Position numbers and translations under genes: made by a program
Source: Mariniflexile sp. TRM1-10
GTDB lineage: Bacteria; Bacteroidota; Bacteroidia; Flavobacteriales; Flavobacteriaceae
Length of the DNA: 64,000 nt
Direction: 5' to 3'
Assembly (NCBI RefSeq): GCF_003425985.1
Contig: NZ_CP022985.1
Location: 3,456,001-3,520,000 of the forward strand
Shown: in pieces, positions 3,320 through 52,745 of the stretch
Numbering within the stretch: the stretch's first letter is position 1
Layout: each line of letters opens with the position of its first letter
The notes under the pieces: model-generated
What the model was told of the DNA's origin: nothing
What the model saw: only the letters and a program-made list of their open reading frames with translations
Database searches by the model: none

Positions 3320-3394
3320 CGGGGTGTAGCGTAGCCCGGTTATCGCGCCTGCTTTGGGAGCAGGAGGTCGCAGGTTCGAATCCTGCCACCCCGA
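3320..3394 (+). tRNA. tRNA-Pro (TGG), integration target
   Basis: Acceptor CGGGGTG pairs with CACCCCG. The anticodon stem CCTGC/GCAGG encloses TTTGGGA, giving anticodon TGG (proline). The T-arm is GCAGGTTCGAATCCTGC. Its 3' end (from 3379) is duplicated 49.4 kb downstream, which marks it as the attachment gene of the island. The gene remains complete because the element carries an identical 3' end. Confidence 0.96.
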
Positions 3395-3395
3395 C
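3379..3395 (+). other. Left attachment site (attL core)
   Basis: The 17 bases AATCCTGCCACCCCGAC overlap the 3' end of tRNA-Pro and are identical to 52729-52745. tRNA 3' ends are classic targets of tyrosine recombinases. Confidence 0.85.
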
Positions 3396-3525: not shown

Positions 3526-3620
3526 ACTTATTTACTGGAATTGTTGTAGTTTTAAGGAACATTTAAGAATGATTTGACTTTTGTTTTTGCAAATAATTGT
3601 TTAACGAAAGCTTCTTAAAA

Positions 3621-4880
3621 ATGCAAACAAGCAACACCTTTTCGGTGGTTTTCTTCACAAGAAAGTCCCGAAGCAAGCCACAGGAACTATCCATTTATGC
3701 CCGTATTACGGTCAATGGCAAGCGTTCCGAGATCAGTCTAAAGCGCCATGTCCAACAAAGGGATTGGGATGCCTCCAAAAACAGGGGGCGGGGCAGCTCG
3801 TATCCCATACGGACCTTGAACAAATACCTTGACCAAGAGTACAGCAGGTTATTGGATTGCCATAAACAACTTTTGGAAGAATCCAAAATAGTGACCGCCA
3901 ACGCCATTAAGTCAAGATACTTGGGAGCGGACGACACCCATAAAACTCTAAATGAGTTAATAGACTACCATAATACCAATATGGTTACCGTGCTGAAACA
4001 GGGAACCATGAAAAACTATTATACCACGGAAAGGTACCTCCACAAATTCCTAATGCAAAAACAAAAAACAAAGGATATTTACTTAAAACAGTTGAACTAT
4101 CGCTTTATCATTGATTTTGAACAGTACCTAAGGAACTATAAGAACACAAATAAGCAACTGATGTTGAGCAACAATGGTGTCATGAAACATTTGGAACGCT
4201 TTAAGAAAATCATAAACCTTGGCATTAAACTGGAATGGGTGGCAAAGAACCCATTTAGCCAATTCCAGTTAAAGTTTGAAAAGTACGATAGACAATACCT
4301 TTCAGAAAGAGAACTGCAACTCATAGAGGGCACTTATTTCAAAAATGACCGTTTGGAAAGGGTAAAGGACTGTTTTCTATTTTCATGCTATACTGGCTTA
4401 TCTTATGCTGATGTCAAGGAACTTACAAACGATCAAATAACCAAGGGGATAGATAATAATTATTGGATATTCACCAAACGCGAGAAGACAAATGAAACGG
4501 TCAAAGTACCCATCTTGCCGCAGGCTATGGACATCATCAATAAGTATAGAGAACATTCAGAGAACAGAACAGGCAAGCCACTATTGCCTTTAAGCTCAAA
4601 CCAGAAAGCAAACAAATACCTAAAGGAGATAGCAACGGCTATTGGGATTCACAAGAACATAACCTTTCATGTTGCTAGACATACCTTTGCAACAACCGTA
4701 ATGCTTTCCAATGGAGTTCCCATTGAAACGGTGTCAAAACTGTTGGGACACACCAAACTTTCAACGACCCAAATCTATGCACGGGTAGTGGAGACCAAAA
4801 TAAGCGAGGATATACAAAACCTTCTGGTTAGATTTGAAACGAAGAAGCAACAATCCCAAGTACTGAATCAAATCAAATAA
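3621..4880 (+). CDS. int: Tyrosine recombinase/integrase
   Basis: About 419 aa from the ATG at 3621 (MQTSNTFSVVFFTRKS), the usual N-terminus of Bacteroidetes integrases. An upstream in-frame TTG at 3597 is less likely. An N-terminal arm-binding region is followed by a SAM-like core-binding domain and the catalytic domain. Catalytic motifs are HVARHTFAT (HxxR) and LGHTKLSTTQIYARV (nucleophile Tyr). The first arginine box reads TGLSYADV, with Ser where Arg I normally stands, as in the CTnDOT integrase family. The gene begins 226 bp past tRNA-Pro, so it is probably the enzyme that inserted the island there. Its codons look richer in G+C than those of the neighbouring gene at 5046. Confidence 0.95.
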   Translation: MQTSNTFSVVFFTRKSRSKPQELSIYARITVNGKRSEISLKRHVQQRDWDASKNRGRGSSYPIRTLNKYLDQEYSRLLDCHKQLLEESKIVTANAIKSRYLGADDTHKTLNELIDYHNTNMVTVLKQGTMKNYYTTERYLHKFLMQKQKTKDIYLKQLNYRFIIDFEQYLRNYKNTNKQLMLSNNGVMKHLERFKKIINLGIKLEWVAKNPFSQFQLKFEKYDRQYLSERELQLIEGTYFKNDRLERVKDCFLFSCYTGLSYADVKELTNDQITKGIDNNYWIFTKREKTNETVKVPILPQAMDIINKYREHSENRTGKPLLPLSSNQKANKYLKEIATAIGIHKNITFHVARHTFATTVMLSNGVPIETVSKLLGHTKLSTTQIYARVVETKISEDIQNLLVRFETKKQQSQVLNQIK

Positions 4881-5045: not shown

Positions 5046-6518
5046 TTATTTCGATTTTGTTTCTTTTCTCTTCTTTGTGTAGATGTTGAATGGTATTCCC
5101 ACTCTTATTCTACCTGTAAAATCATTTGTAACATCAGTTCCATATATACCATTTTTCCAACCTATATCAATTCCGAAAGTTAGTGATGTTTCCCCATCTT
5201 TTTCTTTTCTAAATATTGGTCCAAATAACACACTAAAATTATTTTCATAATACGTATTATTTGGTTTTCGTATTAGATATTCGTGTTGAGCGGAAAGATT
5301 GAAACCAAAATTTTTCTTTTTAGTAAAAAATATAGCTCCATATGCATTAAAGGCTCCAGTTGCTAATGTCTTATCAATGTTTTCATAAAAACCAAAAGTT
5401 TGATTATCCTCGTCTCTAATAACAAAAACATCATCTTCATTCTGAAAAATATTTGGTGTTCCATTAATCAAAGAGTTATTTAGGAAAGAACCAAATGTGC
5501 CATTAACTCCTAACTGGTAATACCAAATCGTTTTTTTTGCATTATGTGTTTTATTGAAACTTAGTGATATTACGGATTTTAATTTATTGATATCATCGGT
5601 TAAGTCAAATATATTGTTGAAATCTTGGATTATACCATCATCTATATTATCCTCATTAAATTTATAAGTGCTATTACTTAAATTTAAATTTAAGTCGAAC
5701 CACGTCAAACTATAACCATATGTAATATCATTTTCTTTATCAAAATTATATAACAAATCATTTTCAATGTATTTTTTGAGTTTTTCATCAGAGTCAACTG
5801 AAGTTAAAAACTTTTTTATTTTTTTCTCTTCCTTATCAAGACTTACAAAAGCCTCCTCATATTTTTTTTCAGAGAGTAGTTTTTTGATAGAAGGTAAAAT
5901 TTCCAAAAGATTGGTGTAATCTTTATTTTTTAATAAATCTGTACTACTATTTACACTTTTAATTTCTTTTTTAAGTTCTCCAATTTTTTTTAAGTTGTCA
6001 TTACTGTACTTTATCTCGTTATAAATGATTTCTCTCGCATAAATTTCACGTCTATTATCGATGAGTTTTTTTGTTTCTTTTTTTCCAGTATAAAATACAC
6101 TTGGACTACAAATTCGACGAATAAAACCTAAATTTATCCCAACGTTGTTATTCCAAGAACCATCGTCATAAAATTCGAATACATTTTTATTGCCAGTAGC
6201 GTTTGCTCCAGCTCTAATATAATAAGGTGATTCCGTATCTCCCAACCTGAAATTTGAATTGATAGAAATAGTCGTTTTTTCTTTATTTTGAGAGTAGCTA
6301 AAAGCAGAGGCATTGGTTGCTAATTCTGAATTAGAGAAAATCACATAACTAAAAGCATTAGAAATATTTTCTTTCATTAAGGTGTCTTGTATTGCATTAT
6401 TGTTATAATGTGAAAGGGAGGTGTTTAATTGGTTTTCATATTTGATGGTGTTTGGATTTTGACTATTTCCAATATATCCAAAGAGCATTAGACAGAAGAT
6501 GAATGTGGTGTTTTTCAT
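5046..6518 (-). CDS. Secreted protein of unknown function, possible outer-membrane beta-barrel
   Basis: 490 aa. It starts MKNTTFIFCLMLFGYIGNSQ, a clear Sec signal peptide. The middle (about residues 150-260) is rich in Lys and Glu and predicted helical or coiled. Both flanks contain alternating aromatic/polar stretches, and the C-terminal part ends GRIRVGIPFNIY, as a transmembrane beta-strand might. I do not recognise a family. It is convergent with the integrase, has no operon partner, and is strongly A+T-rich, typical of island cargo. A surface role is inferred only from signal peptide and strand pattern. Confidence 0.75.
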   Translation of the reverse strand: MKNTTFIFCLMLFGYIGNSQNPNTIKYENQLNTSLSHYNNNAIQDTLMKENISNAFSYVIFSNSELATNASAFSYSQNKEKTTISINSNFRLGDTESPYYIRAGANATGNKNVFEFYDDGSWNNNVGINLGFIRRICSPSVFYTGKKETKKLIDNRREIYAREIIYNEIKYSNDNLKKIGELKKEIKSVNSSTDLLKNKDYTNLLEILPSIKKLLSEKKYEEAFVSLDKEEKKIKKFLTSVDSDEKLKKYIENDLLYNFDKENDITYGYSLTWFDLNLNLSNSTYKFNEDNIDDGIIQDFNNIFDLTDDINKLKSVISLSFNKTHNAKKTIWYYQLGVNGTFGSFLNNSLINGTPNIFQNEDDVFVIRDEDNQTFGFYENIDKTLATGAFNAYGAIFFTKKKNFGFNLSAQHEYLIRKPNNTYYENNFSVLFGPIFRKEKDGETSLTFGIDIGWKNGIYGTDVTNDFTGRIRVGIPFNIYTKKRKETKSK

Positions 6519-7087
6519 AATATGATTGGTTTGTGATTAGCAAATATGAAACTAAAATTGGATTAATAAAATCGCCATTACTTGGTATTTCTCAAATTAC
6601 TGACAACTTGTTTATATACAGAACTTTTATCCTTTTATCCAATCATATTGGCTGGCTATGCGGAACTTTCGGTTGCTTTTCTCTTTTTTTATCCATGTTT
6701 CTTCATTTCGAATAAGAATAAAAAAACAATTTAAATACCAAATGTAAATCGTTTTACAAAATATTTAATACGGAAAACCGTAAGCGTTCTGAAATAAAAT
6801 GCTTAATTAATAATAGGGAGAGGTTAAATATACTAAATATATAGTAAGAAATTACTCTTGTAAGATAAAAATAATTGTGAATTTAGAATTATTACACAAA
6901 AAGAAGGAGTATTCCCAAAAATAAATTACAGATTTATAGGAAATCTGCCATCTATAAATCTCTGTGAAAATTGGTGAAATGGAACTAAGGTTGGGAATAG
7001 CAAGAGGGTAACACGCTAAAGCGATGTTACTTTTTGTGCGTCCTTAGTTTTCAGTAGTTTAGAGGTTTTAAATGAATAGGATTTTAA

Positions 7088-7278
7088 TCATTTTTCACGG
7101 AAAAACGTCCGTAAGCCAATAAAATCAAAGTGTTTTTCCGTGAAAAAGTAGGCCTTTAATCAACTTTGTTGCCTTTTAAACTCTTTTGAAGATTTAGAAG
7201 TTTTTATGAGGATTCAAAAATTTGTTTTTTACTAAATAAGCTTCGTAGCCCAGTAAAATCAAGGAATTTTTTACTAAA
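7088..7278. repeat. Two diverged copies of a hairpin-containing unit
   Basis: CGTAAGCCAATAAAATCAA (from 7110) and CGTAGCCCAGTAAAATCAA (from 7243) are aligned copies. Each is flanked by a T-rich/A-rich pair: TTTTTCACGGAAAAA with TTTTTCCGTGAAAAA around the first, TTTTTTACTAAA twice around the second. In both copies a segment resembling ATCAACTTT follows. The repeat period is about 130 bp. Function unknown. Confidence 0.5.
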
Positions 7279-7466
7279 AAATCAACTTTACGTTCTAAAT
7301 TTCCCAAAAACACTTCATAGTATTAGCTCGATAGATGTTGGGGCTTTTAATGCGTAACAAAATATAATATAACCGTTTTTTGATTAAAAACCATATACCC
7401 GTAGTTCAGTATTACCCCTGTTTGGATACAGAATTGTAAATTTATCACTTTATAAAAAATTAATGA

Positions 7467-7494
7467 GGCTCTTAAAAATAAAATAAGAGAGCCC
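7467..7494 (-). terminator. Stem-loop after the sigma/dCas12f operon
   Basis: On the minus strand GGCTCTCTTA pairs with TAAGAGCC around a T-rich loop, and the sequence then reads TCATTAATTTTTTAT. This is a plausible intrinsic terminator about 90 bp after the dCas12f stop. The same bases contain the 16-bp motif shared with the leader region, so a role as an RNA handle is equally possible. Confidence 0.45.
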
Positions 7495-7498
7495 ACGC
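7483..7498 (+). repeat. 16-bp motif, copy downstream of dCas12f
   Basis: ATAAGAGAGCCCACGC is identical to 9654-9669. The two copies bracket the sigma/dCas12f operon in the same orientation. Upstream bases pair with it as a hairpin (GGCTCTTA with TAAGAGAGCC). The unique sequence after it on the plus strand starts GTTGTATATATTGTTCAC. It is a candidate guide-RNA handle plus guide. Confidence 0.5.
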
Positions 7499-7499
7499 G

Positions 7500-7580
7500 T
7501 TGTATATATTGTTCACATTTAGTGAGTGTTATTATAAACCTCACCTTACGGGTGTACAAGCACCCTCGTAACCAAAACGG
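7500..7580. ncRNA. Possible structured RNA 3' of dCas12f (candidate guide-RNA scaffold)
   Basis: Read on the minus strand directly after the dCas12f stop there are successive stem-loops: GGGTG/CACCC with a 6-nt loop (7556-7571), then GTGAG/CTCAC, then the GGCTCTC hairpin. TnpB and Cas12f guide RNAs are commonly encoded next to or overlapping the 3' end of the protein gene, so this is the natural place to look. Strand and boundaries are not established, and no target could be assigned. Confidence 0.3.
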
Positions 7581-8678
7581 TCAATCTATAATAAGTTCAA
7601 TGCCCGCTTTCTCGGCCTTGTATTTTATTTTGGTCATGAGCTCGTAATAGCTCCAATTTCTCAATACGAATGCCTCTTCCTTGGCAATACCGATTTTGTC
7701 CTCCTGGTTTAACAGAATGAGCGTTCCAGCCCCATGTTCGATGCAAAAATCAATCAGCCTCCTGCTGTATACATGGAGACGGTGGTATACATAACTGCTT
7801 TCCGATTTGCGGAGCTTGTCCACTGCCTTTAATTTCCTTTTAGCTCCTTTGCCCGATTTTGAATAGGTAGCCCCAATCTGTGCCCTTTTAAGGGCAGCCT
7901 GTATCGCTAGCCTTCTATATAAAAACTCTTCCTTCGTACCAATGGAAAGCCTGGCCTTGCCAATTTTGACGACAATGGGATATTCCAGTGACAATGAAGC
8001 CTCCGCAACCACTTCGGGTCTGAGGATGTGCCTTTCTTTCTCGATTTCAAAAATCGGAAGCCAAAAAATCTTGCCGTCCCTTAATTTAATGTGGGACGTG
8101 CACAGCTTGGTCTCTCCATGTATCACCTGTTCCAATAGTCTTTTTTTGTCGGTATGGTCCTTTCCCAAATACGTCCGAAAGGGAATCTGGAACAAACGAA
8201 AGCAAAAAGCCCTTTTTTCGGCATTATAGGACAGTCCGCTGATGCCCTCCAAGCTAAAGGGAAAAGCCATGTCCCTCCTGAAGTTTTTAAGGGCCTGTTC
8301 CCCTTTCCAGTATTTCGGGCTGTCCTTCTTAAAGGAAGCAAGCAGGGTATTGTTCAAACTGGACAGTATATTGGTAGGGATTTCGCCCTTAAAACGGTTC
8401 GAAACCACACGATAGGTGGTATTGATACGGGAGCGTAGCAGGATGCCGTCGCTATCTTTTTTTTCATCGGCCAGTTTCACCTTTATCCCCTCAGACAGAT
8501 AAAAGAACTCCCTGATCATTTCCTGTACATACAGATGGGAAACGATAAGATTGGCAGCCCTAAAACAGCGGTTCTGCCACTGGTAGAGTTTGTCCAAGGC
8601 TTCCTTTCGTTCCTCTTGGGTAGGCAGGTCGACCACTAACTGGATCTTTCGGGTAAGTTTAAGTGTTGGTTTTTCCAT
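7581..8678 (-). CDS. Nuclease-dead Cas12f homologue (dCas12f)
   Basis: 365 aa from ATG 8678, one base after the sigma-factor TGA (TGATATG), so probably translationally coupled; an upstream ATG at 8705 would overlap that gene. The C-terminal third aligns with the Cas12f/TnpB RuvC region: PIVVKIGKARLSIG for RuvC-I (about 234-247), a basic GKGAKRKLKAVDKLRKSE, then GAGTLILLNQEDKIG for RuvC-II (about 316-330) and a WSYYELMTKIKYKAEKAGIEL tail. Where active relatives have Asp (GIDVG) this protein has Lys (about 238), and where they have Glu (xMENL) it has Leu (about 323). It ends at GIELIID, before the zinc-finger insert and RuvC-III Asp. It should therefore bind guide RNA and DNA without cutting. 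The partner is the sigma factor upstream. There are no IS200/IS605 ends, TnpA or CRISPR array. Confidence 0.85.
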   Translation of the reverse strand: MEKPTLKLTRKIQLVVDLPTQEERKEALDKLYQWQNRCFRAANLIVSHLYVQEMIREFFYLSEGIKVKLADEKKDSDGILLRSRINTTYRVVSNRFKGEIPTNILSSLNNTLLASFKKDSPKYWKGEQALKNFRRDMAFPFSLEGISGLSYNAEKRAFCFRLFQIPFRTYLGKDHTDKKRLLEQVIHGETKLCTSHIKLRDGKIFWLPIFEIEKERHILRPEVVAEASLSLEYPIVVKIGKARLSIGTKEEFLYRRLAIQAALKRAQIGATYSKSGKGAKRKLKAVDKLRKSESSYVYHRLHVYSRRLIDFCIEHGAGTLILLNQEDKIGIAKEEAFVLRNWSYYELMTKIKYKAEKAGIELIID

Positions 8679-8679
8679 A

Positions 8680-9465
8680 TCAAGCGGATTCCAGTTGCTG
8701 TTCAAGTTTCAGCTGCATGAGTCTATAGGCAGCCATAAATTCCTTGTGTACTTCCTTTTTGGATAGATTGAGCTCAGTGGCAATGGCCGTAAAGGAATAA
8801 TGCTTTTCACATCGGAGCATTAATACCTTTGCCTGTTTCTTGGTCATAATACTTTTAACTCCAATGTCAAAAGCGGTCTTTTGCTGGGTTTCAGTCCCAC
8901 TTCCCAAGTTAACAATCGTTTTAATGTCTTCAATCGCCTGTTTCACCTCGGTATAGGTTTCCGTAATACTTGTTCCCATCACTTGGGCAATAGCTTTATA
9001 TTGAAAGCCATATTTCAAACAGAGTTCTATAAGTTGTCTTCTTTCCGCATCCAATAGGGGCAATACGCTTTTGATATGGTCGAAGGCTTTTTGTTCCGAC
9101 TCCTGATTGCCCAGGATTTCAGAATCCTTTATTGGGTCAAACCCCACCAAATAGTCTTGGTAGTTGTCGTAATCCTCTAGCGCGTTGACGTTCCTAAAGA
9201 ACTTGTTTTTAGGTCTGGTATAGTATGAAATACATGCCCTTTTCATTACAAATCTTAAAAAATAGAAGATATGTTTGGGGGTTTCTATCCTGTCCCTATG
9301 TTCCCATAATTTTAAAAAAGTATCCTGAACCAAGGATTCTATGACAAAATCATCATTGATCATGCGCTTGCCCACCCAAAAGATACTTCTGCTGTACCTG
9401 GCATGGATATGAACCAAAGCAGTGGAATCACCTTTTTTTAATAGTTCGAAATCATGCTGTACCAT
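8680..9465 (-). CDS. ECF sigma factor with extra C-terminal HTH, partner of dCas12f
   Basis: 261 aa, versus about 170-200 for ordinary ECF factors. Sigma-2 region about 5-90 ([20 protein letters not shown], core-RNAP binding), a variable linker about 90-130, sigma-4 about 131-186 ([19 protein letters not shown], then an HTH), and a further about 55-residue helical unit at 205-258 ([33 protein letters not shown]) that looks like a second sigma-4-type HTH. No anti-sigma gene lies next to it; instead it is joined end to start with dCas12f. Inference: dCas12f and guide RNA supply DNA addressing while this sigma recruits RNA polymerase. The extra domain is a candidate dCas12f- or DNA-contacting module. 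It looks richer in G+C than the surrounding island DNA, suggesting separate acquisition. Confidence 0.85.
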
Positions 9466-9598
9466 AAAATACTGTATTCAAATAGGGATAGGGATGCCTA
9501 CCGCCAAAATTAAATTGATTTTAGTAAAGCGAATTCTTATATAATATAAAGAGAAGATAGCTTTGAGAAACGTTGAGAAGAATGCTGTTTTGCTAAAC

Positions 9599-9730
9599 AA
9601 AAAAGGCGTGGATACTCAACTTATCAATCTGGGGTACTGGTATACCGTGCAACGATAAGAGAGCCCACGCCCCGGGTCGTGAGCATCTTTGCTTATCATC
9701 TCGTTGCAAAAATTACCAGTTTTCAGATTG
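9599..9730. ncRNA. Structured leader with two mutually exclusive hairpins upstream of the sigma/dCas12f operon
   Basis: Structure 1: GGCGTGG (9604-9610) with CCACGCC (9664-9670), extended by CTTATC (9619-9624) with GATAAG (9653-9658). On the minus strand it is followed by TTTTTG, like an intrinsic terminator facing the operon. Structure 2: a long imperfect hairpin, arms 9623-9658 and 9691-9730, pairing TCAATCT/AGATTGA, ACTGGTA/TACCAGT, TGCAACG/CGTTGCA and GATAAG/CTTATC. GATAAG at 9653-9658 is needed by both. The loop contains the 16-bp motif. It may be an attenuator, a guide-RNA gene, or both. On the plus strand TAGCTTTG at 9558-9565 matches a -7 box, but no good -33 is seen. Confidence 0.5.
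9654..9669 (+). repeat. 16-bp motif, copy upstream of the sigma gene
   Basis: ATAAGAGAGCCCACGC is identical to 7483-7498. On the plus strand it is followed by CCCGGGTCGTGAGCATC, unrelated to what follows the other copy. Similarity stops abruptly at the 3' edge, as expected for a handle followed by different guides. Confidence 0.5.
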
Positions 9731-9885
9731 AGAATCAAAGCGAATGCTTCTAATATTTTACTTAAAGAAGTTTCGCAAATATATTAATATGGGACTAATA
9801 TATAAAAAAATATTCAATTGTAGTTTGTATTGCCTACATTAATTATGTTAAAATTTATGAGATTGCTTCCCATAAGGACTCATAG

Positions 9886-10131
9886 ATGAACCAAAATCAA
9901 CTTTATATTGAAAAATTCGGGGAAAACGTTCTCAAACGAAGAAGTGAACTAAAACTAAGTTATAGGCAATTAGCACAAAAATGTGATGTTGATTTCAGTG
10001 CTATTTCAAAAATTGAAAAAGGCCAAAAAAGTTTGGAATTTCAGACAATAATTGAACTAGCCAAAGGTTTAGAAATCCACCCCAAAGAATTATTTGATTT
10101 TAACTTTCCAATGCAAAAATTAGAAAAGTAA
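9886..10131 (+). CDS. XRE-family (HTH) transcriptional regulator
   Basis: 81 aa, made up almost entirely of a Cro/C1-type helix-turn-helix: VLKRRSELKLSYRQLAQ, CDVDFSAISKIEKGQ, then a short tail. This is the standard small XRE regulator size. It is divergent from the sigma/dCas12f operon, with the structured 420-bp region between them, so it might control that operon or an island gene. Nothing in the sequence proves a target. The start ATG at 9886 follows a short A+T-rich region. Confidence 0.85.
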   Translation: MNQNQLYIEKFGENVLKRRSELKLSYRQLAQKCDVDFSAISKIEKGQKSLEFQTIIELAKGLEIHPKELFDFNFPMQKLEK

Positions 10132-11056
10132 CTTTTTTTAACCGTTATTTCTTTCTTTTTGGCTTTTTTGTAATCTCTTCTCTGTTTTAATTTCTTGAAT
10201 TTAGCAAAACTTCGTTTATCCAGTCATTACTGGGGAACGAGGGCTAAATACAGAAAGCAAAGAGGGACTATAACCTGTTTCCAATTAGTTTGTTCCCTCT
10301 TTTTTCATTGTTACTTAGAGAAAAGAACAACGAAGACAAAGTTAACAAAATCCGAGCAGACCGTATTTTTTGTTCCGCTTTGGCAAGGATGAAAAAGGGG
10401 AGAAGCAAGAGGGTAGGGTGCATCTGCGCCCCAATCCCTTTAAATATGTGGCTTCACGGAAAATCCCCGAAAATCGTTTTTAACGGAATTTTTATAAGAA
10501 AGTGTCGCAACCCTGGTAGATTCTGGGAACTTTTTATGAGAAAATCACGGAAAAATACTCTTGTGGGACGTTCAATCGCCACTTGGACTATCATTTTAAA
10601 AAGCCGAAGATTGCCTTTGCGCCGAAAACCCCATCGCCTAAATCTTCGCCTTTTTAAAACGTTTGCTACATCTTGAATTACCATTCATCTGAATTTTTAG
10701 CCTTTAAGGTTTTCCGTAATTGATTTCTTTATTTTTTTATTTATTTTGAAAGAAGATAAAATCCCCTTTGGATATTTGCAAACATATGCGATACATAACA
10801 AAAATTACTGACATTGGGAAAATATATAGGATATTTGTAATATAAAGAAGTAATATAACAAGTTGTAAGCAAGCTAAAAATCCAACCGCACAAGCAGCAC
10901 ATTTGGTTTTTTGCTAACACATAAAGCCAACACTGAAAGAGCTAAATGAGCTGTTTTTTTTTTTTTTTTTGCCAACGCTCGAACGAAATGGGGAAAACCT
11001 TAAAATTGAATTAAAAAAGAGCGTATTTTAAATGACTGAAATCGACCAAAAAAAAT
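10132..11056. other. Gene-free stretch with a large hairpin and a T17 tract
   Basis: TTTTAAAAAGCCGAAGATT (10594-10612) is inverted at 10640-10659, differing at one or two positions, with a 27-nt loop. CACGGAAAA occurs twice nearby (about 10455 and 10547) and also near 7097. A run of 17 T's ends at 10970. GCCAACGCT at 10971 recurs just after the helicase gene (15440). Short frames exist here but have no coding look. Confidence 0.5.
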
Positions 11057-14000
11057 ATGGAGATAACCGAAAAGCTACTGATTGAATTACAAAACCGACT
11101 AAAAGTTGGTAGCAGAAGAGGAGTTCATTTGAATGCAATTCCAGCTCGTTCAAGATACAAATTTGACTTAACACGATTATCTCACATTGACGAAAACCTA
11201 CCTGAAAATTTCATTAATGCATTACTGACGGAATTACCTCTAAAATTCAAAATTAGTTGGAAAGATAATGTTCCTGACCTTAATTCGCTTTTTGAGGAAG
11301 ACCAAACACAATTAGTTAAAATCACAAAATCTTTTGAAAATTTAATTAATCAAACAGATGCAATTGAATCAGAAAAAGGAATAAATACATTTGGTTTTGG
11401 CTTTCCAATACTCGTAAGACGAGACCAAGTAGATAATAAATTAACAGTTGCTCCTATTTTAATTTGGTCGTTAAGAATAAGAAGAACAAAAGAATTTAAT
11501 ACTTGGGAAATAATACGAACAGAAGATGACCCAATTTACATAAATGAAGTTCTTATAAATCATTTGCAAAATGATTCCAAAATTGAGATTAATCAAATTT
11601 CAACTGATATATTAGATGACGGTTTAATTGATAAAAGTGAACTATTGGATATTTGTGTAAATATTATAGAATCCATAAATAGTTCAATTCCAAATGATTT
11701 ACGAGAAACATTTGAGAAAAAACTTAACGAAATAAAATCTATTCCGGAAAAAAATCATTACGAAAACCTACCATTAACATCTAACAATTCATTTATAGAT
11801 TTTGGAGGTCTTTTTTCAATATTTGAAGTTCAGAAACAAAACATAATTCACGATTATAGTAATTTGCTTGAACTCAAAGGTGCAACTATTGACCTTGAAG
11901 ATATGGAAGAACATACGTTTCAACCAATTTCTTCAGTTGAAACTGACCCTTCACAACAGGGAATTTTACATTCATTAAAAGCTTCTCGAAACATTTTAAT
12001 ACAAGGGCCTCCAGGAACAGGGAAAAGTCAATCGCTTACAGCAATTTTAGTAAATGCTCTTGAAAATCAAAAAAAGACAATTGTTGTTTGTGAAAAGAGA
12101 ACCGCTTTAGAAGTTCTTTACAATTCACTAAATGAGAAAGGGCTTAATTATCAATGTGTTCTTCTAAAAGATATTGTTAAAGATAGACGATTGGCAGTTG
12201 ACTCTGTAAGAGATAGAGTAGATAATTCTTCATATCGTAGATACAGATACTCTCATTCTAAAGAAACTTTAGACAACATTATTGAAAAATCAAAAAACTT
12301 AATTGATTCAATAAATAAACGTCATAAAAAATTAGGAGAAAAATTAGTTGGCAATAAAAATTGGACTCATATTGTCGGCTCACTCTTATCAGAACTAAAA
12401 GACAATTCCGAAGAATACAATCTTGATTTAGCAAAAGAAACCTTTAGCTACGAATCATCAGAACTCAATCAATTACTTGAATTAATTAGGAAAGGTCAAA
12501 ATCTATATGATGAGTTTAAACCTCATATAAATTTTTCGTTTATAAACTCGGCTAAATTAGTTGGAGACAATCCATTTATTATAGAACAGAAGCTTGAAGA
12601 GGATTTTTCAATCTACAAAAAAGAGTTGAAAACTTTATTAGAAAACATTTCAAGTTATGAGGCAGAATATTACAAAATAAGAAATGAGCAATTTAACTTG
12701 CAGAAAACTTCAATTATTGATATTGAAACTTCAATTCAAAATATCCTAATAAAACACGAAGGAAATAACGACTTTTTAAATGAAGAAAAAACAAACGGAT
12801 TTTTATTTAAAACAATTTCATTGTTCTCAAAAGAAAAGAAAACAATACTTACAGACCAACAAAAAATAAGTTCTCTTTTCGAAAATTATTCTTCCAAAAC
12901 CAAAAATAATCAAGATTTTGAAAATGTTATTTTCTCTAATTCAATTAAAGAGAATCAAAGTATCCTTAAAAAGTTCAGGTCGATTATTGAGAGAGCCGAA
13001 AATGAATTTCAATCTAAAATAGAGAATGAATACAAATTTCTGAACTTACTTAAATCTGTTGAAAAAGATTTTGACACAGAACTACTACAAACAATAAAAA
13101 CTAACTTTAACAACCTGAAGTCTATAATTAAAGAACAAAATTGGACTGACAACGAACTGAATGAAGATTCACATAACACATTAAGCAACAAAATTCAGGC
13201 TATAATTGAATCGAAAGAACGCTTTTTTGCAAATGAAAATGACCTTTTTTCAATCGAGTTTAAGTGGTATCAATTTTATAATTCATTATCCCGAGAGAAT
13301 AAACTAATCATTGACGAATTAAAGGAAAAATCAAATTGGAGAAAAACATTTTTGATTTTCTACCTAAATTCTATGCTTGTAAATTCTGCAAATACAGATT
13401 TACCAACAAATGATAATGACCATATTGAATTAGGAAAATCCCTACCTGAACTTGAAAGAGAACAGATAAAGTACATTAAAGAATATTGGTTTTCCAAACA
13501 AATAGATGCTACTAGAGAGTTTGATAATAAACATCCAAATTTATCTGTTGAAAATTTATACAATAAACGAGCAGGAAAACGACATAAAAGATTATCCCTA
13601 CGAGAAATCGTGAAGTTAGATATGGATTTGTTCACTACTTTTTTTCCAATTATCTTAACAACTCCAGATGTTGCGAGTAATCTTTTTAAAGGACAAAATA
13701 AATATTTTGATATTGTGATGTTTGATGAAGCAAGTCAATTAAAATTAGAAGATAATTTACCTGCTTTATTAAAAGGAAAACAAATAATCATTGCAGGAGA
13801 CGAACATCAGATGCCACCTTCTAATTATTTTAGCAAAATTTTTGATGGGACAATTGATGATGAAGATGAATTTGAAGATGAAATAGATAAAATTAAAAAT
13901 GACATAAGTAATTCTCTATCAGACTGTGAATCGCTTCTTGATTTCGCTTCCGAGTTAGGTTTTGAGAAGAAGTATTTAGATTTTCATTATCGTTCAAGAC

Positions 14001-15439
14001 ATCCCTATCTCATTGATTACTCAAATTACGCTTTTTATAATCAACGATTAAAACCACTTCCAAATGGTTTTGAATACGTTCCAATAAATTATGTTCCAGT
14101 AAATGGTACATATTCAGACAATTCTAATGATGCAGAAGCTGAAACAATTTTGTCAATTATTGACAAAAACATTTCAAGGCTTCCTAGCGGAGAATATCCA
14201 ACAGTTGGCATTGCTACTTTTAATATAAATCAGCGCAACCTAATTCTTGGAAAGATTAATGAAAGGAGAAAATTTGAGAAATACAGTAGTTTTAATGACA
14301 AAATAGTAGAACTCGAAGAAAACGGATTTTTTGTCAAGAATTTAGAAAATATTCAAGGAGACGAAAGAGATGTAATAATACTTTCTACAACATATGGCAT
14401 AAATAAAGACGGAAAATTTGCCCAACGCTTTGGCTCTATAAATCATCAAAAGGGATACAAACTACTAAATGTTATTGTTACAAGAGCAAAATACAAAGTA
14501 TATGTTTGCTCTTCAATTCCTGAAGATGTATTTTTAAATTATAAGGAACATTTAATAAATGAAGGTTCAAATAATAGAAGAGGGGCATTTTATGCATATT
14601 TAGCTTATTCAAAAGCCGTTAGCGAACAAGACAATGAGGCAAGAATTTCCGTATTAAATACGCTCGCAGAAAATTCGACTAAAAGCACTACAATTGACAA
14701 TTTAAATGAAGACCTCGAATCACCATTTGAAGAAGAAGTTTATCAGGCTTTAACGGAACATTTTGACGAAAAAAATATTATCCCACAACTTCAATTTGCG
14801 GGTTTTAGGATTGATATGGTATATGATACAAAGCATATTGGTCTTCCGAAAATTGCAATAGAATGTGATGGTGCCGCTTATCATTCAAGTCAAGAAGCAT
14901 ATTTACACGATAGACATAGACAAAAAATTCTTGAAGGTCACGGTTTTGTATTTCACAGAATTTGGAGTACAAATTGGTGGCGAAACCCGCAAAAGGAAAC
15001 AAAAAAATTAGTTGAGTTCATAAAAAGCATTGAAAATAGTAGTCCTTCCATTTTTGAAGATAAATCAAAAACAGGTTTGGCATTTACAGATAATATTATG
15101 ATTATCGAAAATGAACTTTCTAAAGTTTCTCCAATCCTTAAAAAAGATTTAAAAGAAACTATTGAAGCCGTAAGTAAAAATGAAGAAATTCAAACCGAGT
15201 TATTTAAAGTAACTATTGGAATCAATAGCAAGGTATTAGTAAAATATTTGAATATTGATAAAGATTTGAAAGTTCACTTAGTAGAACAAACTGTATCTAA
15301 ACTTGAAAAATCAAATGGAATTCAGAAGATAAATATAAAAACGCCTTTGGGTGTAGCATTGAAAGGTAAATCTGTTGGCGATACAGTTAAAATTGGCGAT
15401 TTAGATAAGTACGTTAGAATATTGGAAATTATGAATTGA
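11057..15439 (+). CDS. Large superfamily 1 helicase with C-terminal Vsr/DUF559-like nuclease domain
   Basis: 1460 aa. Walker A QGPPGTGKSQS lies at about 315-325; a long helical insertion follows (about 400-780); Walker B FDEASQ at about 888; then AGDEHQMPPS; and the C-terminal helicase motif QGDERDVIILSTTYG (about 1105). Residues about 1220-1312 form a Vsr/MTES_1575-type restriction endonuclease-like domain with RIDMVYD, AIECDGAAYHSS and FHRIWSTNWWRN. This architecture is widespread in defence islands. The role inferred is an ATP-driven nuclease against foreign nucleic acid. It lies immediately upstream of a pAgo/SIR2 pair on the same strand, but a 207-bp gap leaves open whether they act together. 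Strongly A+T-rich cargo. Confidence 0.85.
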   Translation: MEITEKLLIELQNRLKVGSRRGVHLNAIPARSRYKFDLTRLSHIDENLPENFINALLTELPLKFKISWKDNVPDLNSLFEEDQTQLVKITKSFENLINQTDAIESEKGINTFGFGFPILVRRDQVDNKLTVAPILIWSLRIRRTKEFNTWEIIRTEDDPIYINEVLINHLQNDSKIEINQISTDILDDGLIDKSELLDICVNIIESINSSIPNDLRETFEKKLNEIKSIPEKNHYENLPLTSNNSFIDFGGLFSIFEVQKQNIIHDYSNLLELKGATIDLEDMEEHTFQPISSVETDPSQQGILHSLKASRNILIQGPPGTGKSQSLTAILVNALENQKKTIVVCEKRTALEVLYNSLNEKGLNYQCVLLKDIVKDRRLAVDSVRDRVDNSSYRRYRYSHSKETLDNIIEKSKNLIDSINKRHKKLGEKLVGNKNWTHIVGSLLSELKDNSEEYNLDLAKETFSYESSELNQLLELIRKGQNLYDEFKPHINFSFINSAKLVGDNPFIIEQKLEEDFSIYKKELKTLLENISSYEAEYYKIRNEQFNLQKTSIIDIETSIQNILIKHEGNNDFLNEEKTNGFLFKTISLFSKEKKTILTDQQKISSLFENYSSKTKNNQDFENVIFSNSIKENQSILKKFRSIIERAENEFQSKIENEYKFLNLLKSVEKDFDTELLQTIKTNFNNLKSIIKEQNWTDNELNEDSHNTLSNKIQAIIESKERFFANENDLFSIEFKWYQFYNSLSRENKLIIDELKEKSNWRKTFLIFYLNSMLVNSANTDLPTNDNDHIELGKSLPELEREQIKYIKEYWFSKQIDATREFDNKHPNLSVENLYNKRAGKRHKRLSLREIVKLDMDLFTTFFPIILTTPDVASNLFKGQNKYFDIVMFDEASQLKLEDNLPALLKGKQIIIAGDEHQMPPSNYFSKIFDGTIDDEDEFEDEIDKIKNDISNSLSDCESLLDFASELGFEKKYLDFHYRSRHPYLIDYSNYAFYNQRLKPLPNGFEYVPINYVPVNGTYSDNSNDAEAETILSIIDKNISRLPSGEYPTVGIATFNINQRNLILGKINERRKFEKYSSFNDKIVELEENGFFVKNLENIQGDERDVIILSTTYGINKDGKFAQRFGSINHQKGYKLLNVIVTRAKYKVYVCSSIPEDVFLNYKEHLINEGSNNRRGAFYAYLAYSKAVSEQDNEARISVLNTLAENSTKSTTIDNLNEDLESPFEEEVYQALTEHFDEKNIIPQLQFAGFRIDMVYDTKHIGLPKIAIECDGAAYHSSQEAYLHDRHRQKILEGHGFVFHRIWSTNWWRNPQKETKKLVEFIKSIENSSPSIFEDKSKTGLAFTDNIMIIENELSKVSPILKKDLKETIEAVSKNEEIQTELFKVTIGINSKVLVKYLNIDKDLKVHLVEQTVSKLEKSNGIQKINIKTPLGVALKGKSVGDTVKIGDLDKYVRILEIMN

Positions 15440-15646
15440 GCCAACGCTAACGCTAGCAAGTTTACAGAATGAAAAGCCACAGGTAAAAGTATAAAAAACA
15501 TGTGTGGGTTCAGCAGCAAAAGGAAGTTATTTAATGAATGAATTAAAAGATAAATTTAATTATCAAAAGAAATAAAATTGGCGGATAGTATTTGGAAGAA
15601 GCTTTCGACAAGGAGATTAAATAGGAATAAAAAAATTAATTAATTA

Positions 15647-17557
15647 ATGGCAAATATCAGACTAAATATATTGCCTGTTTCTGAATCGAAGTTTTCATTT
15701 ATTGTATTCAGAAGGTTAAAGCAGGAGAATGATGATAAAGAAGAAAACGTATATCAATATCATCTTCCAATACAAACTGACCTTAAAGAGAGAAATTTAT
15801 ATTTGGTTTCTTTTAGTCCTAAGGATGGTTTTGAAGAATATTTAGCCTATTCAAATTATGCAATTGGATTAACCAAGAGGTTTTTGCTGAAGATATTATT
15901 TGGTTCACTAACAAATAATAAATGTTCATTTTTATTTGAGGTTAAAAGACGATTTTCCGAAGAACAAATTGAGTTTACTCTTTACGAGTTTCAACAAGGG
16001 AAACAAGTAATTTCCTTATCACCATTTTATTTGGAGGAACAAAAACGTTTTGGGTTTATTGTTGATTTCAGGTTTTCAAAAAATAAAGATTTACCTTTTA
16101 ATAAAGAGGTGCAAGTTTTGAGTTTAAGCCTTGACAAACAAGGGCGTAGTAATAAAAATTACTATTCAGATAAATTCAAATTGATCAATGTTTTTTTGGA
16201 GAAGGTTTATGATGAAATTCAGACACTTAGTGAAAATGAAAATAACCAAATTCATATTGAAAGGAATCTCATAGAAACGCCAGTTTTTCAATTAAGTAAG
16301 AAAGAATATATTTTTAGTAATAAAAGTACAGCAAATTCACAATTTCAAGGTATCAGGAATTATGGTCCGCTTCAAAAAATTGAGAAAGAAGTTATTTTTG
16401 CTTTCATTTTTGAAGACCGTTTTAAATCATTTGCCAATGAATTGTATTTAAGTTTAACAGGAAAGTCTAACCCAGGAACTTTTCCAGGATTCGAGCAAAT
16501 GTTTGGAGTGGTCTTAAACACAAATAATGTGAAACAGATTAAAGTAGAAGGTCTTTCAAACGAGAATTTACTAAAAGTAGTTGATACGGTAAAAGAACTT
16601 CAGCAATCCGAATCAAACAAAAAAGTCATAGGTATTTATATTGAAGATTATGCTATTGATATTGAAGATTTGCCAGCTTCAAACCGCTATTACTTCTTGA
16701 AGTATAACTTTATAAAAAACAACCTTGCCTTACAAGTCGTAAATTATCGCAAATTAAGTGAGCGTAATTCTCTAAAATGGTCAACATCAAATGTTGCTTT
16801 AGCAATGTTTGCCAAAATGGGGGGTATTCCTTGGGTGGTGAAGCCAAGCAATAATAACTGCCTTATTCTTGGTGTTGGGAGTTCTCATAAAAGGGATGAA
16901 AAAACAGGAACTATCACAAAATATTTTGCCTATACCGTATGCTTGGATTCAAGTGGGTTGTACAAAACACTTGAAGTATTGGCTGATGAAACTTCTGAAA
17001 CGAACTATTTAGAAAATCTGAAAAACAACTTAGTAAAAATGCTAAGAGACGGAAGAATGGAAAACTACAAAACGTGTGTTTTGCATCTTCCGTTCAAGAT
17101 TAAACAAAAGGAGATTACGGCTATATCAGAAGCAATACAACAAATAAACAATATTGATTTTGTTGCGATTAAAGTAAACCTTGACAATAAATATTTTGGT
17201 TATAGTTTCCACAATACACTTGTGCCTTATGAAAGCAGTTTTGTTAAATTATCCCGAAACGAATATTTGGTTTGGTTTGAAGGGTTGTTGTATGGAAAAG
17301 AAGTTGTTGACAAAAGGCTTGCAAATCCAGTCCATATTCAATTTTTGAATTTGGGTAATCCCAAAGGATTTGACGAAAGAAAATATTTACAAGATGTATT
17401 AAACTTATCAGGAGCAAATTGGAGAGGGTTCAACGCCAAGTCTATACCTATTTCAATCTATTATTCTCAAATCATTGCAAAATATACGGAAGCATTTGAA
17501 AAAATTGAAGGTTATGAAGAAAATTCTATTTCGAATGATAAACCTTGGTTTTTATAA
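15647..17557 (+). CDS. Prokaryotic Argonaute, catalytically inactive PIWI
   Basis: 636 aa. The N-terminal half has N/L1/L2 (APAZ-like) features: FGFIVDFRFSKNKDLPFN, LSLSLDKQGRSNKNYYSDK. A MID region follows (about 340-400: NRYYFLKYNFIKNNLALQVV) and a PIWI domain (about 400-620: NVALAMFAKMGGIPWVV, LILGVGSSHKRDEKTG). Active pAgos have Asp in the first PIWI strand (GxDxS) and in an RDG motif; here these read GVGSS and VLHLPF, so slicing should be lost. The length is above a typical short pAgo (about 450-500) and below a full long-B pAgo. No PAZ is recognised. The stop lies 11 bp before the likely SIR2 start, so the two are an operon. Inferred role: guide-dependent sensor that triggers the SIR2 NADase. 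Confidence 0.85.
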   Translation: MANIRLNILPVSESKFSFIVFRRLKQENDDKEENVYQYHLPIQTDLKERNLYLVSFSPKDGFEEYLAYSNYAIGLTKRFLLKILFGSLTNNKCSFLFEVKRRFSEEQIEFTLYEFQQGKQVISLSPFYLEEQKRFGFIVDFRFSKNKDLPFNKEVQVLSLSLDKQGRSNKNYYSDKFKLINVFLEKVYDEIQTLSENENNQIHIERNLIETPVFQLSKKEYIFSNKSTANSQFQGIRNYGPLQKIEKEVIFAFIFEDRFKSFANELYLSLTGKSNPGTFPGFEQMFGVVLNTNNVKQIKVEGLSNENLLKVVDTVKELQQSESNKKVIGIYIEDYAIDIEDLPASNRYYFLKYNFIKNNLALQVVNYRKLSERNSLKWSTSNVALAMFAKMGGIPWVVKPSNNNCLILGVGSSHKRDEKTGTITKYFAYTVCLDSSGLYKTLEVLADETSETNYLENLKNNLVKMLRDGRMENYKTCVLHLPFKIKQKEITAISEAIQQINNIDFVAIKVNLDNKYFGYSFHNTLVPYESSFVKLSRNEYLVWFEGLLYGKEVVDKRLANPVHIQFLNLGNPKGFDERKYLQDVLNLSGANWRGFNAKSIPISIYYSQIIAKYTEAFEKIEGYEENSISNDKPWFL

Positions 17558-17568
17558 AAAGTAATAAA

Positions 17569-18621
17569 ATGGAAATAAAAGGCGAACATTTATTGTTTTT
17601 ATTGGGAGCAGGAGCAAGCGTTGATGCAGGCATTCCAATTTCAAACCAAATGGTAAACGAGATAGAAAAACTCATAATTAATCACGATGATTGGAAGTCT
17701 TATAAAGACTTGTATTTTTATCTGAAAAGTAGTATTAATTACTCGGACGGAATTTTGGGAAAATTTAACGAGCTTTTTAATGTCGAAAGATTGCTTATTG
17801 TTATTTCAGAGATTGAGAAAAGAGAAAGCAATATTATGTATCCATTCATTGGTACGTGGAATATTCGCTTGCTTGATTTGGGAGGAAACAACTTTGAAAA
17901 CATACGGAATTTTCATAAACTTATTAGAAAGCAACTAAATGAATGGGTAGGACTAAGAAATTATGATGATGCAAATTATTATCAATCCTTTTCTTCTCTT
18001 TCAACCGATGTTGCAAATCTGATGAATGTGTTTACACTAAATTATGATATGTGTTTTGAAAACATTGTAGGAAAAGATAAAACCATAGAATTGGGTTTTA
18101 CCAAAGAAACGAACGAATGGCACCAATCGAATTTTGAGAATATAGAAGGTAAGCACTATAATCTGTACAAACTGCACGGTTCAATAGATTGGTATTTATC
18201 TAAAGAAAAACTGTTCAAAAGCCAAAAAATAGAATCCGAACCTGAGTTGATATTCGGAATTCAACATAAAATGACCTCTGTTGATCCTTACTTTTATTAT
18301 TCTTCAATTTTAAGAAACTGTTGTTTTAATGAAGCAAAAATTATTGTTGTTATTGGATATTCTTATGCAGATGAGTACGTAAATGTAATTTTATCTCAAG
18401 CATTAAATTCTCGTAGTGAACTTAGGATAATAAATGTCGCTCCGTTGTTTGGGAAAAACGAACAAGTTGAAAAAGACTTTATTGCTCAAAGACTTAACCT
18501 AAAAAGCGAAAATCAACTTATTAATATTGACAGTACAGCCAAAGAGTTTATGACCAATACGATGAACAAAGATTTTTTTGAAAAGAATATTGGAGAACCA
18601 GAAGGAGTTCCGTTTGAATAG
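17569..18621 (+). CDS. SIR2-family NADase, effector of the pAgo system
   Basis: 350 aa from ATG 17569 (MEIKGEHLLFLLGAGAS); an in-frame ATG at 17545 would overlap the pAgo stop by 13 bp. NAD-binding FLLGAGASVDAGIPIS is at the start; the catalytic Asn sits in FTLNYDMCFEN (about 155) and the His in LYKLHGSIDWYL (about 203). Both are intact, so NAD+ hydrolysis is expected. No APAZ domain follows, unlike the Sir2-APAZ subunit of SPARSA systems; the APAZ-like part seems to sit on the Argonaute instead. On invader recognition such systems deplete NAD+ and abort infection. An independent SIR2 defence protein is less likely, given the tight linkage. Confidence 0.87.
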   Translation: MEIKGEHLLFLLGAGASVDAGIPISNQMVNEIEKLIINHDDWKSYKDLYFYLKSSINYSDGILGKFNELFNVERLLIVISEIEKRESNIMYPFIGTWNIRLLDLGGNNFENIRNFHKLIRKQLNEWVGLRNYDDANYYQSFSSLSTDVANLMNVFTLNYDMCFENIVGKDKTIELGFTKETNEWHQSNFENIEGKHYNLYKLHGSIDWYLSKEKLFKSQKIESEPELIFGIQHKMTSVDPYFYYSSILRNCCFNEAKIIVVIGYSYADEYVNVILSQALNSRSELRIINVAPLFGKNEQVEKDFIAQRLNLKSENQLINIDSTAKEFMTNTMNKDFFEKNIGEPEGVPFE

Positions 18622-18730
18622 AGCTTCCACCTTTGCTTTCGTTTTTAAAAGTTAATGTTCAATATTTTTCATATCTTTATGATATAAAAAGAGAGCAAAT
18701 TATATCTCCAAAGTTCTTTTATTGGCTTTA

Positions 18731-18748
18731 GTGTGCAATTAGGTGTGC
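18731..18748 (+). other. End motif copy 2
   Basis: GTGTGCAATTAGGTGTGC, preceded by GTTCTTTTATTGGCTTTA, which resembles the sequence before copies 3 and 4. It lies between the SIR2 gene and the decayed AlbA_2 gene, where an older island end may have been. The 18622-18896 gap holds no gene. Confidence 0.4.
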
Positions 18749-18896
18749 ATAAATAAATGAAAATTACAGAATAGCAGTAATAATAGGGGATAAGGCAGTT
18801 TCAATTTAAGCCTGCCATACTGATAAAATTGCACTACAAAGGTCTAAAAACAAAATAATTTCAATAGTTTTTTGAATCGTAATATTCAACTAATTC

Positions 18897-20258
18897 ATGT
18901 TAAGCGTCATCGAAATAAAATCAGTTATTGCTTCAGGAGAGGGGTATAATGTTGAGTTTAAAAAAAAGTATTCCAAGCAAGGTTAAGGAGATTACTGAAG
19001 AAATTTGTGCCTTTTCCAACGCATCAGGTGGAACACTTCTTATTGGGGTTGATGATAACAATATTATTCAGGGAGTCGTTTTTAATAATGCAAAACGTTC
19101 TGCACTTCAAAATTCAATCAATGAAATAACACCAGTATTGCATTGTAAGATTTATGCTGTAAATATTGATACAAAGGATATAGTAGTTATAGAAGTCCCT
19201 TCAGGTGCAAATAAGCCGTATGTGCTTTCAGGAGCTATTTATGTCCGCCAAGACCCTAATTCTCAAAAGCTAACAACTGTTGAAGAAATTAGAGATTTCT
19301 TGCAACAAGCAGATAGAATATATATTATGATGAAGCTCCACGTAAAGCAATTGATATTATTCAAAATATTCTTGATGCTAATATTAATCAATTTAGAGAA
19401 TTAGCAGGGTTAGGTAGGTTCTACGGTTTCAAATGAACAAGTTTTTAATAATCTTAAACTAATTACAAAAGATGGTTTTATTAAAAATGGAGCTATTTTG
19501 TTTTTTGCAAAAAATTCAGAAGAGTAATATGCTGTATTGTTTTTGATGGCATTGATAAAAGATATATTGTTGATGATAAGACAATGACAGGTACACTATG
19601 TCAGCAATTCCTTCAAGCGATGACTTGGTTAAAAACAAAACTAGATGTACGTTATGATATCGAAGGTACAGGTTCACAACCACGTAAAGAACTTTGGGAA
19701 ATTCCCGTGACAGCTATCAAAGAAGCTATAATTAATGCTTTGGCTCATAAAGATTATTCGGGTGGTGTTCCTATTCAAATAAGCGTTTACAAGGACAAAA
19801 TTATTATTTGGAACGAAGGTCAATTACCCGAAAATTGGACTGTTAAAAATCTATTGGAAAAACATGCTTCAAGACCATATAACCCCGACATTGCAAATGC
19901 TTTGTTCCGTAGTGGTTATATTGAATCTTGGGGAAGGGGAACAATAAAAATTATTAGAGAATGTAAGCAAGCTGGAATCCCTGAACCTGTCTTCAGTTAT
20001 GATTCAAGCGATATTTCTGTAGAGTTCAGAATGGATATTTATAATGAAAAATATTTGCAATCGCTTAACCTAAGCGACAGACAAGTAAAGGCTGTTTTTT
20101 ACGCAAAAGACAAAGGGAAAATTACAAATAGTGAATATCAAAGATTAAACGACTGTTCTCGAAATACCGCCAGTAACGATTTAATGGAATTGGTTGAAAA
20201 AGACTTGCTAAAACCAAGCGGACAAAAGGGAGCAGGAGCATTTTACACTTTGAAATGA
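18897..20258 (+). pseudogene. Broken AlbA_2 (Schlafen-type) ATP-binding protein
   Basis: Translation from ATG 18897 gives MLSVIEIKSVIASGEGYNVEF, the start of an AlbA_2 domain protein, then meets an eight-A run (18960-18967) that shifts the frame; the next frame continues SIPSKVKEITEEICAFSNASGGTLLIGVDD. Frame changes also occur near 19310-19330 (YDEAPRKAIDII is in another frame) and a stop interrupts near 19525. From 19584 the C-terminal part is intact: a GHKL-like ATPase segment (EAIINALAHKDYSGG) and a winged-helix end (LNDCSRNTASNDLMELVEK). The family is often annotated as RecG-like helicase or transcriptional regulator. At least three lesions make it a pseudogene rather than sequencing error alone. 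Confidence 0.85.
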
Positions 20259-52728: not shown

Positions 52729-52745
52729 AATCCTGCCACCCCGAC
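52729..52745 (+). other. Right attachment site (attR core)
   Basis: AATCCTGCCACCCCGAC, identical to the 3' end region of tRNA-Pro (3379-3395). No other tRNA sequence is present here, so it is a duplicated fragment, as left by site-specific integration. Confidence 0.88.

Follow-up and report, generated by a model that had tools for sequence, protein, structure and literature searches.

The analysis of a 64,000-nucleotide stretch of the Mariniflexile sp. TRM1-10 genome (hereafter, the window) indicates that a predicted nuclease-dead Cas12f homologue (dCas12f), acting with the ECF sigma factor (sigmaE) of the same operon and with a predicted guide RNA, likely binds eight leader elements in this genome and initiates transcripts beyond the terminators predicted there, a reading to which we assign a probability of about 0.65. 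The protein system is already known, and the novelty, as far as one literature collection shows, lies in what it targets: a family of attenuator-like leaders, which a guide of almost constant sequence would read.

The sigmaE-dCas12f operon

The operon lies on the minus strand and comprises two intact open reading frames, an ECF sigma factor gene (8680..9465; 261 aa, ATG start) followed by dcas12f (7581..8678), which encodes a Cas12f homologue predicted to lack the RuvC active site. The length of the latter, 365 aa, is counted from the ATG at 8678, and the 374-aa version given in the list of open reading frames begins with a TTG at 8705. A single base separates the sigma stop codon (8682-8680) from the dCas12f start codon (8678-8676). 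The initial annotation had described a minus-strand two-gene unit led by an ECF sigma factor, which was borne out by the intact frames and by Sigma70_r2 and Sigma70_r4_2 domains above the Pfam cut-offs. The long C-terminal part of the sigma protein (window 8690-8880, minus strand) displayed a second region-4-like match, with Sigma70_r4 just under the cut-off at residues 207-239 and UPF0122 just over it.

In phmmer searches against PDB chains, the sigma protein matched the RpoE chain 9n9q_C (E 7.4e-109), and dCas12f matched, over almost its whole length, the chain 9n9c_A, named 'Nuclease-deactivated Cas12f' (E 6.8e-187), with the entry 9n9q turning up for both queries; the next-best chains for dCas12f were named Cas12f, transposase or TnpB. 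The PADLOC Cas12f profile also matched dCas12f (7e-48), for which Pfam yielded a sub-threshold match only. When dCas12f was aligned with 9nzr_A, a Cas12f nuclease chain, two residues that we take to be catalytic were found to be replaced, the Asp of GVDLG by the Ser of AEASLS and the Glu of the second motif by Leu, and the C-terminus was about 90 residues shorter, a segment that presumably corresponds to the Zn ribbon and the third catalytic Asp. Twenty dCas12f homologues (64-85% identity) shared both AEASLS and the shortened C-terminus, and neither this alignment nor the homologues displayed the RuvC catalytic residues expected of a CRISPR-Cas type V-F nuclease. The earlier description of a Cas12f-like protein devoid of RuvC catalysis is consistent with these predicted losses.

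Judged by sequence, the pair is a member of the dCas12f-sigmaE family, a protein family already known, whose solved structures we take to be those of the Flagellimonas/Allomuricauda taeanensis RNA-guided transcription system. The initial annotation had mentioned such dCas12f-sigma pairs, and the matches of both proteins to chains of solved structures confirmed that the pair represents a known type of system. A TnpB transposase remnant placed beside an unrelated sigma gene could be suggested by weak hits to profiles of the TnpB family, a reading of negligible probability that the first description had already dismissed: the frame is intact, the 20 homologues have lost the same active site, the RNA scaffold described below is common throughout, and the structure of the family has been solved.

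The guide RNA

Two features around the operon, a guide RNA (7483-7569) and an upstream leader element (9603-9748), had been missed by the initial annotation. The guide RNA comprises a scaffold with three predicted hairpins (7499..7569, minus strand), supported by conservation, alignment, fold and a match to the scaffold model R2, and a 16-nt guide (7483..7498, minus strand), assigned from its place after the conserved ...ACAAC scaffold end and from repeat D9. The scaffold is located directly 3' of dcas12f and reads GAGGGTGCTTGTACACCCGTAAGGTGAGGT...CACTCACTAAATG...ATATACAAC, followed by the guide GCGTGGGCTCTCTTAT. This position directly after dcas12f was observed in 23/23 loci (the own locus and 22 others), and a scaffold pattern caught 73 of the 79 named loci, which are the best 79 of 250 and overlap with the genomes designated G here. 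An alignment of 30 scaffolds resulted in three small hairpins, with both-side changes in 4 of 15 pairs. Model R2 found matches in 22 of the 397 family genomes, with a single match in the TRM1-10 genome; the repeat-spacer array of type V-F systems was not found, no array-like repeat family occurring at 6500-10900. At gathering score, neither the scaffold nor the leader element corresponded to an Rfam 15 family.

Across the 73 loci (from the best 79 of 250), the first 16 guide letters were identical to GCGTGGGCTCTCTTAT in 23, which span several genera and differ in the letters beyond; 22 loci had a near variant, 10 a different GCGTG guide, and 18 a guide of another class. More than one guide unit within 3 kb was noticed in 17 of the 79 named loci (best 79 of 250), L182, L156 and L032 among them, with up to five in the flank of L182, and many guides of these multi-unit loci begin with GGCGTG and then diverge, as if aimed at element variants. 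Guides of other classes, beginning with TTGTGGGATA, AAAAATCCGATC, CCTTCCCT or AAAGCCTT, were seen in L139-L141, L145, L150, L176, L177 and L179-L181; their targets were not found, in a search that was genome-wide for A. taeanensis.

Genomic matches of the guide

At up to 2 mismatches, the guide found nine sites in the 4.86-Mb genome of TRM1-10, namely the guide gene and eight copies of the leader element (E1 to E8), and the reversed pattern found one. The match was 16/16 in E1 and E7 and 15/16 in the other six copies, with the mismatch at guide position 11; about 0.03 sites would be expected in this genome from base composition at up to 1 mismatch. The target in E1 (9655..9670, minus strand), preceded by a G at 9671, is the strand common to both predicted folds of the leader, referred to below as the switching strand. 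In the 16 genomes carrying the same or a near guide, 54 sites were found (9 for the reversed pattern), of which 18 were guide genes and 33 of the remaining 36 were elements; the three other sites had 2 mismatches each.

The targets of dCas12f-sigmaE systems are located upstream of a gene with a G in front (TAM). All eight elements of this genome lie upstream of a gene and carry a G directly before the target, and, among 103 elements, the core pattern was recognised in 99, all of them with a G before the target core, although RNA structure could by itself account for the conservation of this G. The proposal that the pair is an RNA-guided transcription system thus draws support, at the sequence level, from family membership, the conserved guide RNA and these G-preceded matches. 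The first description had further placed the pair on a mobile island rich in SusCD regulation; the island itself is probable, but its SusCD genes were rejected as targets, since the window holds one element copy only, that upstream of the sigma gene, with none at the window's two other SusC genes. The other seven copies are located outside the window.

Anatomy of the leader element

The element E1 (9603..9748, minus strand) is located upstream of the operon, and the elements are about 150 nt long with a T run at the end. Upstream of E1, TATATTTG (9776..9783, minus strand) fits the promoter box TAnnTTTG, which corresponds to the sigma-A consensus in PMC9723704. A TAnnTT(T/A)G box was found 15-60 nt upstream of the element in 139/156 cases versus 7/156 control windows.

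For the alignment of 103 elements, the predicted fold consisted of a hairpin domain on the 5' side and an extended terminator stem with the guide target as its 5' arm; in E1, the predicted 3' arm and the T run occupy 9599..9624 (minus strand). In a second and exclusive predicted fold, the target strand of E1 pairs with upstream sequence, forming a long hairpin. In permutations that ignore the relatedness of the sequences, the variable stem P1 of this second fold (n=103) averaged 7.37 pairs within sequences versus 3.89 between them, with a maximum of 4.33 in 5000 permutations, and its variable stem P3 (n=92) averaged 6.88 versus 4.23, with a maximum of 4.72 in 5000; under the same limitation, the terminator pairing exceeded the permutation maximum narrowly (8.94 versus 8.76, n=96 pairs) because the terminator is conserved. 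The stem test used anchors, as gaps in the variable stems left little to be detected by a helix scan of the unanchored alignment. The predicted energies of the two folds are close (mean -45.2 for the hairpin and -48.6 for the terminator), the terminator being lower in 76/102 elements but not in E1. With two exclusive folds supported by covariation, one of which is a terminator, the anatomy of the element, as modelled, is that of an attenuator.

Proposed activation within the leader

Without the complex, a transcript from the element's own promoter would fold into the hairpin or the terminator and be attenuated. When present, dCas12f with its guide RNA would open the DNA duplex where the switching strand lies, RNA polymerase would be brought in by sigmaE, and the transcript would begin at a fixed distance downstream of the target, as in the dCas12f-sigmaE family, in which transcription starts a fixed distance downstream of the R-loop. 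The T run begins 65-74 nt past the first base of the target in 96 of the 100 elements measured, and the start could fall past the target and before the T run. A transcript starting there would lack the 5' arm, so that the terminator could not form and termination would be escaped; the predicted energy of transcripts beginning 40-54 nt past the first base of the target was -2.7 to -0.3 kcal/mol, so that they would be almost unstructured, compared with -32.1 kcal/mol for the terminator portion. The switching strand would thus have two roles, as a constant address and as the limit beyond which no terminator can form. Transcripts reading through would reach susCD, the ECF sigma operons and the operon of sigmaE and dcas12f, and would thereby switch on genes for nutrient uptake and for regulators.

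Since the target is located between the promoter box and the terminator, and hence within the predicted transcript, it would also suit a roadblock, in which the complex bound to the transcribed leader blocks RNA polymerase, as TldR repressors do, and expression is lowered. This is unlikely, given the sigma factor in the same operon and the matches of both proteins to chains of one structure set (9n9q in common). Moreover, the guide is in the sense orientation, which fits transcription directed toward the gene. The identity of the guide with the predicted terminator 5' arm also admits an action in trans on the leader RNA, in which the guide RNA pairs with the 3' arm and prevents termination, with dCas12f as an RNA-binding helper. 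Such a role is very improbable: the structures solved for the family and the presence of a sigma partner favor DNA, which is what the dCas12f-sigmaE family binds, and no leader strand is matched by the guides of other classes that occupy this position. Transcription started inside the leader, past the terminator 5' arm, is the activation mode that we favor.

Genes behind the elements

The first recognised gene behind 156 elements was SusC in 62, sigmaE in 48, a protein of about 115 aa in 18 and an ECF sigma factor in 5, and 23 were unclassified, one of these being false and many having short flanks. For the 33 elements in genomes without dCas12f, the corresponding counts were SusC 17, the ~115-aa protein 12, ECF sigma 2 and unclassified 2. 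In the TRM1-10 genome, E1 precedes sigmaE-dcas12f, E7 precedes susCD (SusC/RagA family), and E2-E6 and E8 precede genes for the ~115-aa protein and an ECF sigma factor, which are followed downstream of E3 by FecR and SusCD; the ECF sigma gene behind E2 is disrupted by a frame shift.

The ~115-aa protein family (e.g., L010:3187-3534) had no Pfam or NCBIfam match, and its genes sit between the element and the ECF sigma gene in the six own copies as well as in genomes without dCas12f. Small genes judged by eye to be HTH-like (window 9886-10131, and L009-L014) were also observed in divergent orientation upstream of E1-E7, each one different.

Distribution of the element and specificity of the guide

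A survey of the 397 family genomes, with strict filters by which weak copies may be missed, found elements in 65, namely in 18/19 with dCas12f and 47/378 without a dCas12f hit, a contrast that is inflated by the operon's own elements and ignores relatedness. When only elements away from the operon were considered, the figures were 14/19 (counted by hand) versus 47/378 (p 6e-9, relatedness ignored). At least one element was present in 24/24 further dCas12f genomes, many of them picked for unusual guides. A looser dCas12f search in the 47 element-bearing genomes revealed no trace in 46 and one remnant, and the target core was kept equally in genomes without dCas12f. The presence of elements without dCas12f indicates that something other than dCas12f maintains the target strand, and argues against a tight link between the two.

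An element was found in 35 of the 79 named loci (best 79 of 250), A. taeanensis included, and in 31 of these 35 its distance to dcas12f was 1.0-1.2 kb, which places it upstream of sigmaE. Since the operon element precedes sigmaE whatever the guide class, in A. taeanensis too, self-regulation as a selected, conserved feature is unsupported.

The guides did not fit the elements of their own genome better than those of other genomes (p 0.30), nor in a second test (p 0.16 for all GCGTG guides, 0.29 for canonical and 0.20 for other ones); the anchor pattern of this second test caught 7/8 elements of the TRM1-10 genome, found none in 4/49 genomes and admitted at least three false or doubtful elements (G266, G414, G422). 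It follows from this equal fit that the guide addresses the core of the element family and not genome-specific variants. The exception was G409, whose guide GGCGTGTCATCCCACT fits its own rare element at 15/16, a closer fit than the elements of 44 other genomes provided.

The missing covariation between the guides and their own elements, together with the equal conservation of the core without dCas12f, could mean that the match has no present function, the guide being a relic or having once been aimed at the elements, which would be kept for RNA reasons only. We regard this as quite unlikely in view of the first 16 guide letters being identical in those 23 of 73 loci while the following letters differ, of the 33 of 36 matches outside guide genes that fall in elements, and of the fit of the rare G409 guide to its own rare element. 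A present role of the guide in binding the leaders can be extended to a broader and more tentative proposal, somewhat short of an even chance, of a mobile RNA-guided sigma factor with a near-universal address. One guide would read the strand on which the two folds of a widespread family of attenuators before susC and ECF sigma genes turn, and would thereby activate an eight-site regulon, including its own operon, started past every terminator at once, in any flavobacterium that the island enters. Its probability was lowered because guide-element covariation is missing.

Comparison with known systems

In the dCas12f-sigmaE system of known structure (PDB 9n9c, 9n9m, 9n9o, 9n9q), as in the pair described here, both proteins are matched over their whole length. 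The A. taeanensis locus L139 likewise presents the scaffold after dcas12f and an element upstream of the operon, with a dCas12f 74% identical to that of TRM1-10. It differs in its guide, TTGTGGGATATACGC, which belongs to another class and matches neither of the two elements of its genome, its best other matches being non-elements, whereas the TRM1-10 guide matches all eight.

TldR (PMC13418256) is also a nuclease-dead TnpB/Cas12 relative acting in guide-RNA gene regulation; however, it represses and has no sigma partner, while the sigma partner found here suggests activation. Attenuators and riboswitch leaders share with the element a pair of mutually exclusive folds before a regulated gene, of which one is an intrinsic terminator, but the element matched no Rfam family and a guide RNA additionally targets its switching strand. 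In the FecI/FecR control of susCD, SusC/SusD and ECF sigma genes are involved as well, and such genes stand behind the elements; the difference is that here a guide RNA would read the address, in place of a sigma-specific promoter.

No paper on the leader was found by title in one open literature collection, and the accessible parts of PMC9723704 and PMC7366714 do not describe it; these targets could well be listed in the publications that first described the family, and the guide target may already be in print. These observations would provide natural dCas12f-sigmaE systems with a concrete, testable regulon and would add an attenuator-like leader family before susC and ECF sigma genes to those in Rfam 15. 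They also suggest a mode of activation in which a transcription start inside the leader skips the terminator, and a possible reason for one guide being constant over many genera, unlike CRISPR spacers, as the leader RNA must keep the target strand for its two folds.

The probable island and its neighbourhood

The gene pair is probably located on a mobile island of about 49 kb, extending from the 3' end of tRNA-Pro, which holds the first copy of a 17-bp direct repeat (3379..3395), to the second copy (52729..52745), both being probable borders; a tyrosine integrase of this probable island is encoded at 3597..4880 (plus strand). The G+C content of the pair is 0.43, versus 0.34 for the window. Between the integrase and the operon, a 490-aa protein (window 5046-6518, minus strand) presented no Pfam match over the cut-off. 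Polysaccharide genes occupy the window at 22698-60531 and encode a pectate lyase, an alpha-L-fucosidase, a GH31 enzyme, two SusC proteins with FecR genes and a hybrid two-component regulator, and the element is absent from them. A defence-like cluster was also observed on the same island (window 11057-20258), which includes a helicase-nuclease (PADLOC PDC-S37, 4e-145), a short pAgo (pAgo_II, 8e-264) with its SIR2 partner (Aga_SIR2, 2e-148), and a RecG-C-terminal-like protein.
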